From: Erinaceus europaeus
Lineage: Eukaryota > Chordata > Mammalia > Eulipotyphla > Erinaceidae
DNA: 64,000 bases
Direction: 5' to 3'
Assembly (NCBI RefSeq): GCF_950295315.1
Contig: NC_080176.1
Coordinates: 33,941,006-34,005,005, forward strand
The notes below the pieces were generated by a model that did no database searches, had not been told where the DNA came from, and was given only the letters and a program-made list of their open reading frames with translations. The position numbers and the translations under genes are program-made. Shown here piece by piece: positions 14,221-54,716 of this stretch; positions within the stretch are counted from its first letter, which is position 1; every line of letters begins with the position of its first letter.

Positions 14221-16199
14221 TTATTTATTTATTTATTTATTTTAAGAAAGGATAAATTAACAAAACCATAGGGTAGGAGGGGTACAACTCCACACAATTC
14301 CCACCACCCAATCTCCATATCCCATCCCCCCCCTGATAGCTGTCCCACTCTCTATCCCTCTGGGAGCATGGACCCAGGGTCATTGTGGGTTGTAGAAGGT
14401 GGAAGGTCTGGCTTCTGTAATTGCTTCCCCTCTGAACATGGGCGTTGACTGGTCCGTCCATACTCCCAGTCTGCCTCTCTCTTTCCCTAGTATAGTGGGT
14501 CTCTGGGGAAGCGGAGCTCCAGGCCACACTGGTGGGGTCTTCAGTCTAGGGAAGCCTGGCCGGCATCCTGATGACATCTGGAACCTGGTGACTGAAAAGA
14601 GAGTTAACATACAAAGCCAAACAAATTGTTGAGCAATCATGGACCCAAAGCTTGGACTAGTGGAGAGGAAGTGTTAGGGGGATACTCACTGCAAACTCTA
14701 GTGTACTTCTGCTTTCAGGTATATATTTTGCACTAGTCTATGGATACGTGTGAACATATGCTCTCTCTCACAGAAACTGGTGTATATCTAGGTTTTGGGA
14801 CTTTGTTAGAAAGTGAACCACCTGAGATGGAATTAGAGTATACTATGAAAGGAAAGGTCTCACCCGAGTAATGAAGCTGAAGGGTTGTCATTCCACACGT
14901 GAAGTCTCTGGATACAGTCTGAAGTGAAGCATGTTGAGGTGGCCATCGTTGTGTTGATTAGGTTGTGATGGGTAGATGCAATATTATTTGATATGGATTG
15001 GGAGAGGCATATGGGAAAGTGGGCCCTATCCAAGGGTTCCAGGACTGGGGGAAGTAGAGGCTCTCTAGTGGAGATGTGAGGTTCCTGCTGTCTTAGGGTT
15101 CAAAAAGACAATCGATAGTTAATGTTATCATCACATTAGTTGGTAATTGGGTTAACTTTGAAAAGTCCTTTTGTTAGGGTTTGCTGTACAGTACCCAGTA
15201 TTTTGTGTATAGCTGTGCTATTGGTTGCTTCTGATCTATTTGGTCTAGGCTTTTGAGAGAGTCCACCTATCAAATACACAGCCTATATATTAAAAAGACT
15301 CAAGTCTGTGTTTTAAAAAACTTCGAGACATACAATTAATTTTCCCCCTCTCATATTAAATAGTGATTTATATGACTACATTTTACTAGGAGTGTACATA
15401 AACACCATTCCCACCACCAAAAGACTGTGACCCATCCCTCCCACCCACTCCCACCCCCCACTGGCCCAGGAAGCTGCATATCTACCCCTCACCATAGGGC
15501 TTTTACTTGGCCCTACTTACAATTTGGTCAGGTCCTGCTTTTAGTTTCCCTTTCAGATCTTCTTACTCAACTTCTGTTGATGAGTGGGATCATCCCATAC
15601 TCATCTTTATCTTTCTGACTTAGCTCACTTAACATAATTCCTTCTAGCTCTGTCCAAGATGGGTCAGAGAAGGTGGGTTCATTGTTCTTCATAGCTGTAT
15701 AGTATTCCATTGTGTATATATACCACAGCTTTCTCATCCACTCATCTGTTGTTGGGCACCTGGGTTGCTTCCAGGTTTTAGCTATCATGAATTGTGCTGC
15801 TATGAACATAGTACACACCTCTTTTTGGCTGGGTGTTATGGTGTCCTTGGGGTATAACCCCAGGAGAGGAATTACTGTATCATATGGAAGGTCCATGTCT
15901 AGCCTTCTGAGAGTTTTCCAGACTGCTCTCCACAGAGGCTGTGCCAATTTACATTCCCACCAGCAATGTAAAAGGGTTCCTCTGTCCCCACAACCTCTGC
16001 AGCATTTGTTGCTGCTGTCCTTTTTGATATATGCCATTCTTACAGGAGTGAGGTGGTATCTTAGTGTTGTCTTAATTTGCATTTCTCTGACAATCAGTGA
16101 CCTAGAGCAGTTTTTCATATGTTTGTTAGCCTTTTGGGTGAATGTTTTGTTCATATCCTCTGCCCATTTTTTGGATGGGGTCATTTTTTTGGTGCTAAG
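14221..16199 (-). mobile_element. L1, 5'-truncated, recent
   Basis: Minus-strand L1 with an (AAAT)n tail at the left, a 1.3-kb 3'UTR and the last 211 codons of ORF2 at the right. Imperfect direct repeats 'ctgtgttttat' (14210-14220) and 'ctgtgtttgat' (16200-16210) flank it, so the 5' truncation is the insertion point. Its 3'UTR ends differently from the L1 copies at 9.2 and 43.8 kb. Confidence 0.92.
15567..16199 (-). pseudogene. L1 ORF2 C-terminal part, open frame
   Basis: The C-terminal end of L1 ORF2, the endonuclease/reverse transcriptase that copies L1 and SINE RNAs. The uninterrupted frame runs from the truncation point to a TGA at 15567. It contains the conserved basic stretch '[17 protein letters not shown]', the Cys-rich region '[18 protein letters not shown]' and '[13 protein letters not shown]'. 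All are typical of the segment after the reverse transcriptase. The endonuclease and polymerase parts are missing, so the copy is dead. The lack of stops over 200 codons points to a recent insertion. Confidence 0.92.
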
Positions 16200-16210
16200 C
16201 TGTGTTTGAT

Positions 16211-16372
16211 TTTTTTAAAAAAGTTATATTTTATTTTAATGAAAGAGATATAGAGAGGATGAGAGAGAGACCAGAGCACTGCTCAGCTCTGGCTTGTGGT
16301 ATGGACACTGGAGCCTCAGGCATGAAAATCTTTTTGCATAACCATTAGGTTATCTCCTCTACCATGCATTTG
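16211..16372 (-). mobile_element. SINE-E
   Basis: Reverse copy: T-rich tail, 'cagagcactgctcagctctgg', then 'cataaccattaggttatctcc'. Confidence 0.85.
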
Positions 16373-16462
16373 AACTTTAAATATATTAAATTTAATTTAA
16401 TTATTTTATTACTATTAATTTTTTTTTTTACCAGAATACAGTGTTAAGCTCTGGTTTATGGT

Positions 16463-17409
16463 TCTTCTTCTAGCGTTTGCCCTTCTTCCGTAGCCAGTCA
16501 GCAGCGTCAGGTTGAGCCTGATGTAAAGTTTCGAGACCTCCTTTGAATCTGGAGAGGTGGCAGTCGTTGATTATGTGGGTCATAGTCTGTCTGTAGCCGC
16601 AGGGGCAGTTCGGGTCGTCTCTGGCTCCCCAGCGATGGAACATAGCAGCGCACCGGCCATGGCCTGTTCGATAGCAGTTGAGGAGGGCCCAATCATAACG
16701 TGCTAGGTCAAAGCCGGGTTGACGCTTGCAGGGGTCTGTGATAAGGTGTTTGTTCTTTACCTCAGCTGACTGCCAACTCTGTTTCCAAGAGACTGGAACA
16801 GAGAAGTTCAGTGTAGGCGTAGGGGACCAGATTGGGTGACGAGACGTCAACCGTTGAACAGGGTGGGCGAAGATATCTGCGTATATTGGCAGGTCCGGTC
16901 GAGAATAGACGTGGGAAATGAACTTAGATGATGCCGCATCCCAACGAATATCTGGCGGGGCGATGTTGCTAAGAACTGGCAGCCATGGAACCGGGGTGGA
17001 ACGGATGGTTCCAGAAATTATCCTCATGGAGGAATATAATTTGGAATCGACCAAGTGGACATGGGGACATACTGGGGCACAGTATTCTGCAGTGGAATAG
17101 CATAATGCCAGAGATGATGATCGTAGTGTGGAAGCGCTCGCGCCCCATGAGGAGCTGGCCAGTCTTGCAATGATGTGATTCCTCGCGCCCACCTTTGCTG
17201 CAGTTTTTATGAGATGTTCGTGAAATGACAGGGTGTGATTGAGAGTAACGCCAAGATAGACTGGCTGGGCTTCATGCAGGATTCTCGTATCGTCAAGCTG
17301 CACATTAAGCTCACGCGAGGCCGAGGCATGGTGTAGATGGAAAACAGATGATACCGTTTTTGCAGTGCTAGGGATTAGTCGCTATTTTTTACAGTAATCA
17401 GATATCAGA
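16463..17409 (-). mobile_element. Jockey/CR1-like non-LTR retrotransposon fragment (not L1)
   Basis: 947 bp inserted inside a SINE-E copy, flanked by perfect 11-bp direct repeats 'tggtttatggt' (16452-16462 and 17410-17420). Its sense strand is minus. The 5' end is truncated within the reverse-transcriptase-coding region. The 3' end follows the stop codon by only a few bases and consists of GAA repeats (minus strand 'tagaagaagaa'), with no long poly-A. G+C is visibly higher than the flanks. The protein is unlike L1 ORF2 and belongs by motif to the Jockey/CR1 group common in arthropods. Confidence 0.88.
16470..17409 (-). pseudogene. C-terminal part of a Jockey/CR1-like reverse transcriptase
   Basis: The frame runs from the truncation point (17409) to TAG at 16470-16472, about 312 codons, with one internal stop (17382-17384) after 'SDYCKK', where related proteins usually have Trp. 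From the GTG at 17303 there are 277 open codons. Seen: 'YLGVTL' (residues 16-21 of that part), which follows the polymerase core in this group; 'STAEYCAPV' (70-78); and a C-terminal zinc-knuckle-like Cys-x-Cys-x7-His-x4-Cys (C233, C235, H243, C248). The polymerase active site lies upstream and is absent, so this copy cannot function. The near-intact frame suggests recent arrival. Family-level placement (Jockey, CR1, L2 or Daphne type) is from memory of motifs and is not firm. Confidence 0.82.
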
Positions 17410-17507
17410 TGGTTTATGGTGATTTGGGGGATTGAATATGGGTCTTTGGAGCCTCATTCATGAGAATCTCTTTGCATAACCATTATACTATCTCCCTCAC
17501 CCCTGAT

Positions 17508-17645
17508 TTTTTTTTTTAGTAAGGACTTATTTATGATAGAGAACCAGAGCATCTCTCTGGCACATGTGATGCCATAAGTTGAATTTAGGACCTTCTGCTC
17601 TCCAGCCCAGTGCTTTACCTGGTGTACCACCACCATGGCACACCA
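17508..17645 (-). mobile_element. SINE-D
   Basis: Reverse copy: T10 run, 'catctctctggcacatgtga', 'cccagtgctttacctggtg'. Abuts the split SINE-E. Confidence 0.75.
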
Positions 17646-40679: not shown

Positions 40680-41480
40680 ATAGGTCCTGGGGTGCGTCCT
40701 GCAACCAGTCGTCTTGCAGTGTTTCTTGTTCCTCAGGGATAGCAGTGCCATCATGTGGGTATTGCCGGACATGGCGGGCAGGAAACCAGACAGGTTTTGA
40801 GTAATTCTGCCGAAAAACACATGCAAAACCCTCCCATGGTCAATAGGGGGTCTGGCCCTTTCCATATTTTATCGAGGGGGTCTTTCCATTTGACCTTAAT
40901 AGCTGGAAGGGTGGATGGTGTTTGCCAATGAAGAATAATAGGAGATTGGTTCGAGTTTTTGTAAATAGTAAAGAGATTTAATGTAGTTAAGGCTTTTACC
41001 AGGTGAATATTATAGGGTATATTCCCCCTTTTTCTTTATTTAATTGCGCTTTAAGGGTTTGATGGGCCCTCTCGACAATGCCTTGTCCCTGTGGATTATA
41101 GGGATTGCCTGTAGTATGAGTATTGTTCCAGAGGGAACAAGAATCTTTAAATTGTTTGCTGGTAAATGTAGACCCATTGTCAGTTTTAATTTGAAGAGGT
41201 ATGCCCATTAAAGCAAAACAGGAGAGCTTATGGCTTATAAGATTTTTTAAGCTTTCTCCCATCTGAGCTGTCACCCACATAAATTTAGAAAAGGTATCAA
41301 TTGAGACAAACACATATTTTTGTTTGCCAAAGTTGGGTATGTGGGTGACATCAATTTGCCAAAGAACATTGGCTTTTAAACCTCGGGGGTTAACTCCAAG
41401 AGTTTGAACAGCAATTGTCTTGATTAGACCTGCACAGGAGGAACATGTAGCAAGAATACGTTTCAACTTTGCCAGAGGAA
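40680..41480 (-). pseudogene. ERV integrase
   Basis: Integrase joins retroviral DNA to the host chromosome. The open part at 40996-41466 (156 codons) contains the zinc-finger end 'CSSC', then the catalytic triad in correct spacing: D39 (in 'DVTHIP'), D96 (in 'TDNG') and E132 (in 'VERAH'), D-to-E distance 36. Downstream, past a frame break, 40680-40950 still encodes the C-terminal Trp/Gly/Pro-rich DNA-binding part in another frame. Disabled by frameshifts. Described only; old endogenous copy. Confidence 0.88.
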
Positions 41481-41499
41481 CATCAGGAAATCAAGCTTG

Positions 41500-42190
41500 A
41501 AGTCCTTTAAGATTAACATGGGTTAGGGAATGAAAATCAGCAGGATTAGAGACAGAGGATAGGAGAATTCCTGTGGAGGCAAGGCAGTCAGCCGCAGCAT
41601 TCCCTTTAGACAGGGGACCAGGAAGAGGGCTGTGGGAACGAAGGTGTTGAACATACAGTGGTTGGGTTCAAGAACAGAGCATAGAGGCAATTTGAATTAA
41701 GAGAGGAGAAAGTGGGTTGTAATCAATTCTCACATAAGAACAAGCAATCCATGGAAATAAGTTAACAGTATATAGACTGTCAGAAAAAAGGTTGAAGGCT
41801 TCTGGTACAGCTTTTAATGCAAGGAAAACAGCATAAAGTTCTTTGTACTGAGGGGAGTTATCACGAAGCTCAATAAAGGGAGATTTGGGGTATTGCTTTT
41901 CTGGATAATATATAAGGGCAGCAGCTCCCTTTTTTCCACCATCAGTGAAGATTGTAGGAGAAGAGTGGATGGGATCTTGAATAAAAGTTTAGGTACTAGT
42001 AGAGGCAAAAGAGGTAAAGAAGTAATCAATTTATCAGAAGCAAAATGATTATCTAATTGTCCTGGAAAGCCCATTAAACTATGGCAAAATGAGAATGGTG
42101 GTGTATGAGCCACTCTGTATCTGTGGGAGAAAATGGAAGAATAATTGAATCCGGTTCCCTTCCTACGACATATATCAATCTATTTCTTCC
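41500..42190 (-). pseudogene. ERV RNase H region, broken
   Basis: Lies between connection and integrase as in class II pol. Frames of about 100 codons (for example 41814-42113) are offset from one another. Assigned mainly by position, with few conserved residues readable. Confidence 0.55.
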
Positions 42191-42468
42191 TTATCGAACC
42201 ATGAATTCTAAGGCATCAATCTCAGTAAGAAGTCTTGGAGATCCCCCTACTGGTCTATGAAGCCATTCAAGAATGCCATACTTTTGCCACAGTGCCCCAA
42301 CTACCGTGGGGGTGGAGTTAAAGATTAGAAGATCTACCAGAGAGGAGGGGGAGAACTGAACGAGGTGCATGTCCTGGAGAGCTTGGTTAACCCTTTCCAG
42401 TGTCAAGGAGGCTTCACAGGATAATATACGCTTTGAGGAAGGATGTTGGTTTCCTTTTAACAGATCAA
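42191..42468 (-). pseudogene. ERV RT thumb/connection part
   Basis: Continues the RT frame beyond the inserted LTR ('DLLKGNQHPSS' is the first readable motif), ending at 42191. It carries 'LWQKYGILEWLH', typical of the connection region of class II pol. Confidence 0.75.
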
Positions 42469-43026
42469 TGTTAGTGAGCAAAATCAAACCACCATCCACT
42501 GCAAGGAAGCAAAAGATGTTTATTCACGAATTCGAATCCGGGCCGAGAGGTGACTGACAGCAGTCCACCAGCTCGACCCTGAACAAGCCTCAAACCACAC
42601 AATTTATAGGAGTACATTCTGGGTGGGGAATATGCAAAACTAGAATTCTATCACACACTCAATAGCATTTTACAGAAAACACAGGATCCAATCATTTCAG
42701 ACATTATCATACCCTAAGCAGCCTATAAGAATTGTCTAATTTCAAGCCTTTATTCAAAATAGGGTCACCACACTTTCTCGTTGTCAGCCAAGACCACCTG
42801 GCTATCAGCTCCCTTGACCTTGAGCAAGTGGTTGGGTTTCAAGGACTTGGTTAGGCTAGCTATTCTCTTTAAGACAAACAACAGGTGGCTTACATCTTGG
42901 TGTGTGGGTTTTGTCTAGCCCCCCTTTTTTTACAGGACTTTTCAACTGCAGGCAGAAAAGCAACTATACTTATAACTTATGCTTAAAACTTTACTTAAAG
43001 CAATTCTAGAATTACTGCTTCTAACA
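42469..43026 (-). mobile_element. Solo LTR of another ERV family, inserted in pol
   Basis: 558 bp with perfectly inverted ends TGTTAG...CTAACA. The AATAAA on the minus strand (42519-42524 region) sets its orientation. Five-base flanks on minus are 'ttaat' and 'ttgat' (one mismatch), consistent with a 5-bp target duplication in the RT-coding sequence. Unrelated to the LTRs at 37366 and 62921. Confidence 0.85.
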
Positions 43027-43640
43027 ATTAAACAATGGTTGGAGGCAGCTAGTAGGCAGATAACAATATTGCCTAAGCCAAATTAAATTTCCAAGAAAAC
43101 TTTGTAAAGAAGCAAGAGTGAGATTAGAAGGAAAAGTAACACAAGGTTTTAAGGGATGAATCTGCATTAGAGAAATCTCTGAGCCTAAGAAAGAAATTGG
43201 AGGAATTAGCTGTACCTTCTCAGGAGCTACATTAAGACCGCTTTTCTTTAAGGTAGGGATAAGAAAATCACGTAGGGCAGAGAGATCTGTATCTAATTTT
43301 CCCCATATAAAGACATCATCCATATAATTAAAAACCTTAAGGCCCTTATGAATATATGGGAAAAGGGCAGATTTAATGGCCTCTTGACAAATAGTAGGAC
43401 TATTAGCCATGTCCTCAGGCAGTACCACCCATTCAAATCTATCATCAGGACTGGCGTTATTAATAGAAAGAACAGAGAAGGCAAAACGTTTACAATCTTG
43501 TGGGTGCAAGGGAATAGAGAAAAAACAGTCCTGTATATCAATAGCTATGATTGGAATTCCCATGGGAATTGCAGAAGTAAGAGGCAAACCCCTTTGGGGG
43601 AGCCCCAAACCTGCATGGTTTTATTAACCACACTGAGATC
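43027..43640 (-). pseudogene. ERV reverse transcriptase, N-terminal and palm parts
   Basis: The open frame from 43608 (195 codons) has the first catalytic Asp at residue 24 in 'IDIQDCFF', the 'LPEDMANSP' block (usually LPQGMANSP, so altered here) and the YMDD box at 95-98. It is the polymerase that copies retroviral RNA. The frame is offset upstream of 43620 and cut downstream by the inserted LTR, so it is inactive. Described only. Confidence 0.9.
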
Positions 43641-44143: not shown

Positions 44144-46911
44144 AATACAATAGTTTTTACATGCATAACATTCCCCAGTTTCCCATATAACAAAACAACC
44201 CCAACTAGGTCCTCTGAATCCTTCCTGGACCTGTATTCTCCCCACCCACCCACCCCAGAGTCTTTTACCTTGGTGCAATATGCCAATTCCGTTTCAGGTT
44301 CTACTTCTGTTTTCTTTTCTGATCTTGTTTTTCAACTTCTGCCTGAGAGTGAGATCATCCCATATTCATCCTTCTGTTTCTGACTTATTTCACTCAACAT
44401 GATTTTTTCAAGGTCCATCCAAGATCAGCTGAAAACAGTGAAGTCACCATTTTTTACAGCTGAGTAGTATTCCATTGTGTATATATACCACAACTTGCTC
44501 AGCCACTCATCTGTTGTTGGACACCTGGGTTGCTTCCAGGTTTTGGCTATTACAAAGTGTGCTGCCAAGAAAATATGTGTACACAGATCTTTTTGGATGG
44601 ATATGGTGGGTTCCTTAGGCTATATCCCCAGGAGAGGAATTGCAGGATCATAGGGTAGGTCCATTTCTAGCCTTCTCAGAGTTCTCCAGACTGTTCTCCA
44701 GAGAGGTTGGATCAATTTACATTCCCACCAGCAGTGCAGGAGGGTTCCTTTGACCCCACAACCTCTCCAGCATTTGTTGCTGTTACCTTTTCTGACAAAT
44801 GACATTCTCACAGGAGTGAAGTTTTGTCTCTGAGTGAAGTGATATCTCAGTGTTGTCTTTATTTGTTTTTCTCTGACAATCTAAGACTTGGAGCATTTTT
44901 TCATGTGTTTCTCAGCCTTTTGGATCTCTTCTGTGGTGAATATTCTATCCATATCCTCCCACCATTTTTGGATGGGGTTATTTGTTGTCTTGTTGTTGAG
45001 TCTGGCAAGCTTTTTATATATGTTGGTTATTAAACTCTTGTCTGATGTATGGCATGTATAGATCTTCTCCCATTCTGTGAGGGGTCTCTTGGTTTGGGTA
45101 GTAGTTTCTTTTGCTGTGAAGAAGCTTTTTAATTTGATGTAGTTCCATAGGTTTATACTTGCCTTAGTCTTCTTTGTAATTGGATTCATTTCATTGAAGA
45201 TGTCTTTAAAATTTATGCGGAAAAGAGTTCTGCCAATATTTTCTTCTAAGTATCTGATAGTTTGTGGTCTAACATCCAAGTCCTTGATCCACTTGGAATT
45301 TACTTTTGTATTTGGTGAAATACAGTGGTTGAGTTTCATTCTTCTGCATGTTTCAACCCATTGTTTCTAACACCATTTGTTGAAGAAACTCTGCTTCCCC
45401 ATTTAATAGTCTGGGCACCTTTGTCAAACATTAGATGTCCATAGGTGTGGGGGCTCACTTCTGGGCTCTCAATTCTATTCCACTGGTCAGTGTGTCTATT
45501 CATGTTCCAGTACCAAGCAGTTTTGATGACAATGGCCCTATAATACAGTTTGAGATCTGGGAGTGAGATGCCTCCGGTTCTGTTCTTTTTTCTCAAGATT
45601 GTTTTGGCAATTCTAGGTCTTTTCTGGTTCCAGATAAGCATTTGTAGCATTTGTTCTATTCTCCTAAAAAAATGTGCTTGGGATCTTGATGGAGATAGCA
45701 TTAAATTTGTAGATGGCTCTGGGTAGTATATTCATTTTGATGATATTAATTCTGCCAAGCAATGAACATGGGATATCTTTCCACTTCTTTGTGTCTTTTT
45801 CAATTTCTTTGAGTAGTGACTCATAATTTTCAGTATATAAGTCTTTCACTTCTTTGGTTAGGTTTACTCCTAGATATTTTATTTTATTTATTTATTTTTT
45901 TGCTATAGTAAAAGGAATTGATTTCTGGATTTCAATTTCTTCTAGCTTAGTGTTTGCATAGAGGAATGCCACTACTTTTGAATGTTAATTTTGTAGCCTG
46001 ACACCTTACTGTATTGCCTGATGATTTCCAAAAGCTTCTTGCTGGATTCCTTAGGTTTTCTGTGTATACTATTATGTCATCTGCAAATAGTGAGAGTTTG
46101 ACTTCTTCTAATCTGTCTCCCTTTAATTCCTTGCTCCTGCCTGATTGCTATGGTAAGAACTTCCAACACTATGTTGAATAATAATGGTGATAGTGGGCAG
46201 CCCTGTCTAGTACCTGATCTGAGGGGAAATGCTTCCAGTTTTTCACCATTGAGTATGATGTTGGCTGTGGGTTTGCTATATATAGACTCCACTATCTTAA
46301 GGAATTTTCCAACTATTCCCATTTTTTGTAGTGTTTTGATCATAAAGGGATGTTGTATTTTGTCAAAGGCTTTCTCTGCATCTATTGATATGACCATGTG
46401 GTTTTTGGTCTTGCTTTTGTTGATGTGGTGGATCACATTGATTGATTTACGTATATTAAACCAACCTTGCATGCCTGGGATAAACCCCACATGGTCATGA
46501 TGAACAATCTTTTTAATATACTGCTGTATCCAATTGGCTAGAATTTTGTTCAGTATTTTTGCATCTATGGTCATCAGAGATATTAGTCTGTAGTTTTCTT
46601 TTTTGCTTGTGTCCCTGTCTTCTTTTGATATCAGAGTGATGTTGGCTTCATAGAAGCTGACAGGGAGTATTCCAGTGTCTTCAATATTCTGGAAGACTTT
46701 TAAAAGTAGAGATATTAGTTCTTCTTTGAAAGTTTTGTAGAATTCATTTGTAAAACCATCTGGTCCAGGACTTTTATTTTTGGGGAGATTTTTGATAACT
46801 GTTTCAATTTCATTAGCTGTGATGGGCCTGTTCATGTTATCCACTTCCTCTTTACTTAGTTTTGGAAGTTGTTAGGTATCTAATAAATCGTCCATTTCTT
46901 CCAGGTTTTCT

Positions 46912-47211
46912 TCTTCTTTTTTTAATCTTTTTTTATATTTATTTTATTTATTTATTCCCTTTTGTTGCCCTTGTTGTTTTATTGTTGTAATTATTATTGT
47001 TGTTGTCATTGTTAGATAGGACAGAGAGAAATGGAGAGAGGAGGGGAAGACAGAGAGGAGGAGAGAAAGATAGACACCTGCAGACCTGCTTCACCACCTG
47101 TGAAGCAACTCCCCTGCAGGTGGGGAGCCGGGGTTCGAACCGGGATCCTTATGCCGGTCCTTGTGCTTTGCGCCACCTGCGCTTAACCTGCTGCGCTACA
47201 ACCCGACTCCC
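46912..47211 (-). mobile_element. SINE-A, short form, in L1 ORF2
   Basis: Reverse copy with perfect 15-bp direct repeats 'tcttccaggttttct' (46897-46911 and 47212-47226). Confidence 0.95.
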
Positions 47212-48419
47212 TCTTCCAGGTTTTCTAGCTAGGTGGCATATAGTTGTTCATAGAAACCTCGCATGATATGTTGAATTTCTGCGGTGTCTGTTGTGATATC
47301 TCCTCTTTCGTTTAGTATCCAATTTATTTGCGCCTTCTCCCTTTTTTGTTTTGTGAGTCTGGCTAAAGGTTTGTCGATTTTGTTCACTCTTTCAAAGAAC
47401 CAACATTTACTTTCGTTGATCTTTTGTATGGTTTTCTTATTCTCAATGTTATTTATTTCTGCCCTAACTTTAGTGATTTCTGTCCTTCTGGTTGCTTTAG
47501 GGTTCCTTTGTTGTTCTTCTTCTAGGTCTTTAAGATGTGCAATCAGGCTGTTTATTTGTGCTTTTTCTTGTTTCCTAATGTGTGCTTGTATAGCTATGAA
47601 CTTCCCTCTCAGTACTGCCTTAGTTGTGTCCCAAATATTTTGATAGCTTGTGTCTTCATTTTCACTGAAGTCTTGAAACATTTTGATTTCTTCCTTGATT
47701 TCCTCTTTGAACCAGAGGTTATTAAGAAGTGTACTGTTGAGCTTCCACATTTTGAGACTATTACTAATCTTTTGTTGATTGTTAAGTGTTAGTTTAGTTC
47801 CACTGTGGTCTGAGAAGATGTTTGGGATGATTTCAATGCTCTTGAATTTGCTGATGCTGTCTTTGTGGCCTAACATATGGTCTGTCCTTGAGAATGACCC
47901 ATGTGGATTTGAGTAAAATGTGTATTCCAGTTTCTTGGGATGAATGACTCTGAAAATGTCCAATAGTTCTAGTTTATCTATCTCTTCATTTAGCTCCCTC
48001 TTGTCTTTATTGATTTTCTGCCTGGATGATCTGTCAAGTTGAGAGAGTGGATTGGTGAAGTCCTCTACTATGACTGAGTTGCTGTTAATATATTGCTGTA
48101 GCTCTTTCAGTAGACATTTGATGTATTTAGATGGCTTCTCATTGGGTGCATAGATGTTAATAATGTTAATGTTGATCCTCTGAGCATTGAGTAGTGTCCA
48201 TTCCTATCTTTTTTAATCTTATCTATTTTAAAGTCTTTTGTGTCAGATATGAGAATAGCTGTTCCTGGCCTTTTTTGTGGGCCATTCATTGGCTTGTATG
48301 ATAGTTTTTCATCCTTTCACATTAAGTCTGTGTTTGTCTTGTTGAGTTAGGTGGGTTTCCTGTAGATAGCATATTGTTGGGTTGTATTTTCTGATCCATC
48401 TTCCTACTCTGTGTCTCTT

Positions 48420-54179: not shown

Positions 54180-54451
54180 TTAAATACTGAAGCTGCATAC
54201 CTTCCTAATACCTCTGTCTATATTGTAGTCAGATTACAACAGTGTTTATGGCTATAGTCTTATTATGTCATTTGACAGGTCTTATCTAACCACGAGAATT
54301 ACTCAGTTTCATGTTTATTTTATCATCTGAGACTGAGGTCCAGTGGTTTTGCTGGCAAATATAAGTCTTGTGTGGCAACCAAGGTAAGTCAAGATTCTGA
54401 AACACCCTTTTGTTTCTTCCCCTTCCTTGTCTCAGGACTTGCACACTGGTG
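54180..54451. other. Unique sequence, no gene seen
   Basis: A strong donor-like 'ccaaggtaagtc' at 54378-54389 ends a short 17-codon open stretch, but no convincing acceptor lies before it. Confidence 0.4.
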
Positions 54452-54467
54452 CTGAATTTTATCTTTT

Positions 54468-54716
54468 GAGAGATTGCCTGGAGGGTCTAGCAGGGGAGTG
54501 CAACTACTCCCCTTTACTGAAGTATGCCCTTTACTGAAGAAGGTCTGTCTCTGTTTGGGGAAGGTTGTTCTCTTCAGCCAAACCCACAACTTTGGGAGGG
54601 ATGCAAATGGAGCGGTGAGGGAGGAAGGGGACACCTGCCTAGCCAGACAGATCAGCGAATCAGCCCTGGCGATCAGTGGGGTGACGGATGTCACAGCCAG
54701 ATTGCCCTCACATCCA
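54468..54716 (-). pseudogene. RN7SK pseudogene: 7SK RNA pseudogene, 3'-truncated, without poly-A
   Basis: 7SK is the nuclear RNA that restrains the transcription factor P-TEFb. The minus strand starts 'ggatgtgagggcaatctggc' and follows 7SK through 'ccccttcctccctcaccgct', to 'cccctgctagaccctccagg' and 'ctctc', about 250 of the usual 331 nt. A 17-base tandem duplication ('cttcagtaaagggcata') lies near the middle. Flanks are 16-bp repeats with one mismatch (54452-54467 'ctgaattttatctttt', 54717-54732 'ctgagttttatctttt'). There is no A-tail, so it is a tailless retro-copy. No promoter elements are retained. Confidence 0.92.

Follow-up and report, generated by a model that had tools for sequence, protein, structure and literature searches.

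Introduction

Jockey and CR1 are LINE-type non-LTR retrotransposons with an endonuclease and a reverse transcriptase (RT). Vingi elements, unlike Ingi elements, are not known to carry RNase H. The abstract of the 2011 Vingi paper reportedly names Vingi-1_EE and Vingi-1_AAl and states that 33 other mammal genomes lack such elements; the paper is said to propose horizontal transfer and not to exclude vertical descent. Clade listings give Vingi as an Ingi-related clade, separate from Jockey and CR1 (PMC3391268 and PMC5753468, both in excerpt). A Vingi LINE has undergone a recent expansion in hedgehogs (Kojima et al. 2011, by its title), and PMC3183009 (in excerpt) gives 311 copies of Vingi-1N3_EE that are <1% diverged in Erinaceus europaeus, and places hedgehog Vingi TEs among the ‘older likely horizontal transfers in mammals’. 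The text of PMC5857283, a review of mammalian elements, mentions neither Vingi nor the hedgehog.

RTE1_Sar of the common shrew is also a LINE, reported to have been transferred between parasitic nematodes and a eulipotyphlan, but it belongs to the RTE clade and is reported as undetected in the hedgehog (PMC6542046, in excerpt). Mariner_Tbel of the European hedgehog and the tree shrew is similar in that an insect-to-hedgehog-lineage transfer has been proposed; it is, however, a DNA transposon dated to ~100-69 million years ago (PMC3517439, in excerpt), unrelated in mechanism and age. Hedgehog Vingi is a good case of a LINE possibly crossing into one mammal family.

Here we describe a LINE fragment in a 64-kb stretch of the Erinaceus europaeus genome (the window), which a first-pass annotation had labelled as Jockey/CR1-like and as a candidate for horizontal transfer. 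It is very probably a genomic copy of the hedgehog Vingi LINE, of which Vingi-1_EE is the autonomous family, and was truncated at its 5' end and dead on arrival.

Anatomy of the insert

The insert is the 3' end of a LINE on the minus strand. It is bounded at 16463-17409 (947 bp), because a perfect 11-bp duplication, TGGTTTATGGT, stands at both sides (target-site duplication copy 1 at 16452-16462, copy 2 at 17410-17420). Both this duplication and the length agree with the first-pass annotation, as does the nearly open frame: read across the whole insert on the minus strand, it has 313 codons, with stops at the 9th and, terminally, at the 313th. The internal stop lies close to the truncated 5' end (17382-17384, minus strand). 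Downstream of it, an open frame of 303 residues with its stop codon (16470-17381, minus strand), recognised as an ORF and by homology, covers the end of the RT region and the C-terminal domain. Of 20,000 sequences simulated with a first-order Markov model of the insert's own transitions, 38 had no more than two stops in whichever of the three frames was most open. As judged by sequence comparison, it is homology (E = 2.1e-103 to protein P0001) rather than these frame statistics that settles that the insert is a real LINE coding remnant.

The C-x-C-x7-H-x4-C end described earlier resembles a zinc knuckle and lies at 16560-16607 (minus strand). All 31 aligned sequences (30 of the 120 relatives among the matches listed, plus the window frame) share its four Cys/His residues without exception. 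In the alignment, the end of the open frame coincides with that of its relatives, slightly beyond the CCHC region. The stop codon is followed immediately by a GAA-type 3' tail of seven bases (AAGAAGA; 16463-16469, minus strand) with no poly(A). GAA repeats had been reported directly after the stop codon, and these amount to ~2.5-3 units, because just seven bases fit before the duplication. The assignment to a non-L1 LINE also held. The relatives are endonuclease and RT proteins. A retrocopy mobilised by L1 was rejected for want of such a tail.

The G+C content of the insert is 0.511, compared to 0.409 for the window, and is thus above that of its surroundings, as had been noted. A search for a further copy of the insert in the 64-kb window found none.

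These features suggest how the insert most likely arose. A complete Vingi element elsewhere in the genome would have supplied the endonuclease and RT, and this enzyme would have nicked an old SINE-type repeat. Synthesis of cDNA would then have been primed at the GAA-type 3' end of the element's own RNA (target-primed reverse transcription) and have halted after ~0.95 kb, leaving a 5'-truncated copy. Repair of the staggered nick would have produced the 11-bp duplication. Slight later decay, comprising ~8-11 missense changes, a single in-frame deletion and a single nonsense mutation, would account for the present frame. We infer self-mobilisation of the element in this way from three traits of the product (its 5' truncation, its 3' tail and the flanking duplication) and from how LINEs generally behave. 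The fragment itself should not move on its own, because it lacks an endonuclease and keeps no more of the RT than its end.

Protein relatives

The 303-residue frame matched 248 of 1,217 candidate proteins at E<=0.001, with P0001 the best. A Pfam search with the insert's own frame, which takes in the C-terminus but, of the RT region, just the end, gave no domain match. In contrast, the full-length relatives P0224, P0225 and P0250 have RVT_1 and Exo_endo_phos domains, so the endonuclease and RT of a Vingi-type element are present in the insert's relatives and not in the fragment itself. RNase H was absent at E<=0.01 from all five proteins scanned, and from the precomputed domains among the matches listed (120 in each of three protein searches). 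A PDB search with the window frame found no match; with P0225, the top match was the LINE-1 ORF2 protein (E = 5.7e-18), and R2 proteins came next. Scans of viral and genome contigs with the 31-sequence alignment and with P0127 gave 16, 48, 2 and 32 stretches, none of which was confirmed as a relative.

Few rows bear organism names. Among the matches listed, these were 2 of 120 in the first protein search (Trachemys, a turtle, whose protein is P0029, and Latimeria), 9 of 120 in the second (a pseudoscorpion, seven insect rows and the eel Synaphobranchus) and 3 of 120 in the third (Phlebotomus, Cordylochernes and Nilaparvata, the last two recurrent). None of these named rows is from a mammal, tick, flea or helminth; because so few rows among the matches listed are named, the lack of mammals is a weak negative.

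The closest protein among the matches listed was P0127 (ENA, 582 aa, one member, from a 2,072-bp contig), which fell outside the length limits of the first protein search and surfaced in the second. It is identical to the insert at 292 of 306 aligned positions (95%). The next-closest protein had 56% identity, among the 158 rows covering >=85% of the query, and half-length partial relatives reached up to 63% among the matches listed. P0127 has an RVT_1 domain and shares with the insert the same C-terminus and CCHC end. It differs in having a longer RT region, in having no internal stop and in retaining three residues that the insert lacks. The site of this in-frame deletion is at 17067-17072 (minus strand; coordinates derived from the frame), and most aligned relatives have the missing residues.

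The similarity of P0127 to five relatives starts at residue 20. Its residues 1-19 correspond to the same element read in antisense (window 16832-16888), with 15 of 19 positions matching, a score that none of 40 shuffles equalled. Because this head is antisense to the element that it precedes, P0127 is a rearranged, nested or chimeric copy rather than a whole element. The sequence suggests that it adjoins or sits within an inverted, diverged copy, or else that it is a chimera. If P0127 is real, two or more copies would be present in its source, in line with hedgehog DNA, though short of proof. We regard it as quite improbable that P0127 comes from another animal, such as a parasite, prey or some other donor; were that so, hedgehog Vingi would have a very close non-mammalian relative, one that would lead towards the donor. 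Either way, this 95% match is a concrete lead, towards further copies or towards a donor.

Phylogeny

A tree was built from the 158 of 224 rows that covered >=85% of the query columns, with 66 rows dropped and with no clade labels on the rows. The query and P0127 form a pair (SH-aLRT 100) within a clade of 91 rows (SH-aLRT 98) that includes the turtle protein, and all seven arthropod-named rows lie outside this clade. The pair sits away from the other rows on a long stem of 0.51 changes per column. Latimeria, Synaphobranchus and Uroleucon are among the dropped rows, and the tree is silent on all three. No donor can be read from the tree, because its deepest split is weak (SH-aLRT 25) and it comes from a quick search without bootstrap.

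Age of the insert and its target

The insert has retained CpG dinucleotides. Its CpG observed/expected ratio (o/e) is 0.774 (946 of 947 bases scored), compared to 0.176 for the window. The left flanking kilobase has no CpG at all, and the right one has five (o/e 0.119). When 947-bp windows were slid along the whole stretch in steps of 100 bases (n = 631), five had a CpG o/e >=0.7, all of them overlapping the insert; the highest value in those not overlapping it was 0.47. Together with the single internal stop in 313 codons, the ratio in the insert led us to reject an ancient CR1/L3 relic; the first-pass annotation had likewise set the element apart from old, decayed relics of that kind.

The target is an older repeat, which we take to be a hedgehog-lineage SINE. 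Alignment of the joined flanks places its left part at approximately 16411-16451 and its right part at approximately 17421-17517 (longest match). With the site itself excluded, the joined empty site aligns over the junction to three stretches of the window, which are 70.0, 73.8 and 74.6% identical to it. Because the other matches are only this similar, the target repeat looks much older than the insert. The earlier view that the insertion post-dates the repeat is supported.

Compared to P0127, the frame of the insert has 11 missense changes, one three-residue in-frame deletion and the stop; one of the 11 adjoins the deletion and hinges on gap placement. Judged by the commonest residues in the family, the window appears to carry the derived state at eight of the 11 positions, and the others look ambiguous or derived in P0127. 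At one position P0127 has His, where the window and 57% of the other tree rows have Arg, a possible CpG change on the P0127 side. The missense divergence is 1.3-1.7% (8-11 changes over 633 nonsynonymous sites; 95% Poisson limits 0.55-3.1%). Mammalian neutral rates are 2-5 per billion years per site, and this divergence would then correspond, roughly, to an insert age of a few million years. Recent activity of the element is supported by its insertion into an older repeat, its retained CpG and its low missense divergence.

The composition of the insert, unlike that of its surroundings (CpG o/e 0.77, G+C 0.51), could also be taken as a sign of arthropod or parasite DNA fused into a mammalian contig, as a contaminant or an assembly chimera. 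This is extremely improbable in view of the perfect 11-bp duplication at the exact ends of the insert and the tail at its 3' end. Moreover, a CpG change in the window could explain 5 of the 11 missense differences between the insert and P0127, which would suit a genome with CpG methylation. An assembly chimera was rejected on the perfect duplication.

Identity and origin

What kind of LINE is the insert? It resembles Vingi-1_EE and its non-autonomous derivatives (for example, Vingi-1N3_EE) in its Erinaceus host, in being a young copy, in its non-L1 LINE type and in that RNase H was not found in its relatives. The name Vingi is thus most likely right, and it comes from the host, the anatomy and the literature rather than from alignment to the Vingi-1_EE consensus. 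The label ‘Jockey/CR1-like’ is probably wrong. Vingi fits best and is a separate clade (PMC3391268 and PMC5753468, in excerpt), a comparison made from clade listings.

A naming that does not come from a consensus alignment, and the long stem that carries the query and P0127, would both suit another LINE lineage (of Jockey or Ingi type, for example) that is active in this genome, is separate from Vingi-1_EE and has yet to be described. We consider such a lineage very unlikely, in that it would be coincidental for a single mammal lineage to harbour two different families of this general type with recent activity, and the host, the absence of RNase H and the youth of the insert all match the published Vingi family.

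For Vingi, the literature suggests a horizontal transfer into the hedgehog lineage, and this is plausible. Horizontal arrival is not a new proposal, however, because PMC3183009 (in excerpt) already calls the hedgehog Vingi transfer likely. The novelty put forward by the first-pass annotation was in print by 2011, and the insert most likely represents a typical Vingi-1_EE copy with a truncated 5' end; one further copy of a published family changes little.

The same element could, alternatively, have reached hedgehogs by descent, if an amniote Vingi lineage was inherited vertically and persisted in hedgehogs while in other mammals it disappeared or became inactive, with no horizontal transfer. 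This history, which is compatible with a Vingi-1_EE copy, is unlikely on balance, given that PMC3183009 (in excerpt) speaks of likely transfer and that mammals are missing from the organism-named rows (2, 9 and 3 of 120 among the matches listed), the latter being a weak negative. It keeps a minor share of the probability because ancient Vingi relics are listed in human, namely X12_LINE (PMC5753468) and one pre-amniote protein fossil (PMC9004415), each as given in an excerpt. The turtle protein P0029 is a relative, which also favours descent.

Other features of the window

Besides the Vingi-like copy, the window holds several other candidate repeats. Adjoining the insert, an open frame of 215 residues at 15567-16214 (minus strand) resembles, by eye, the C-terminal end of L1 ORF2, with no Pfam match. 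Separate frames at 44881-48203 (minus strand) resemble pieces of an L1-type element by eye, and an RT piece at 46149-46808 (minus strand) weakly matches 7 of the 120 relatives among the matches listed. At 40996-43620 (minus strand), separate broken frames resemble, again by eye, the integrase and reverse transcriptase of an endogenous retrovirus. The sole match in an Rfam scan of the window lies outside the insert, at 54381-54715 (minus strand), and is a 7SK RNA (RF00100, whole model, 167 bits) that is probably a retrocopy.
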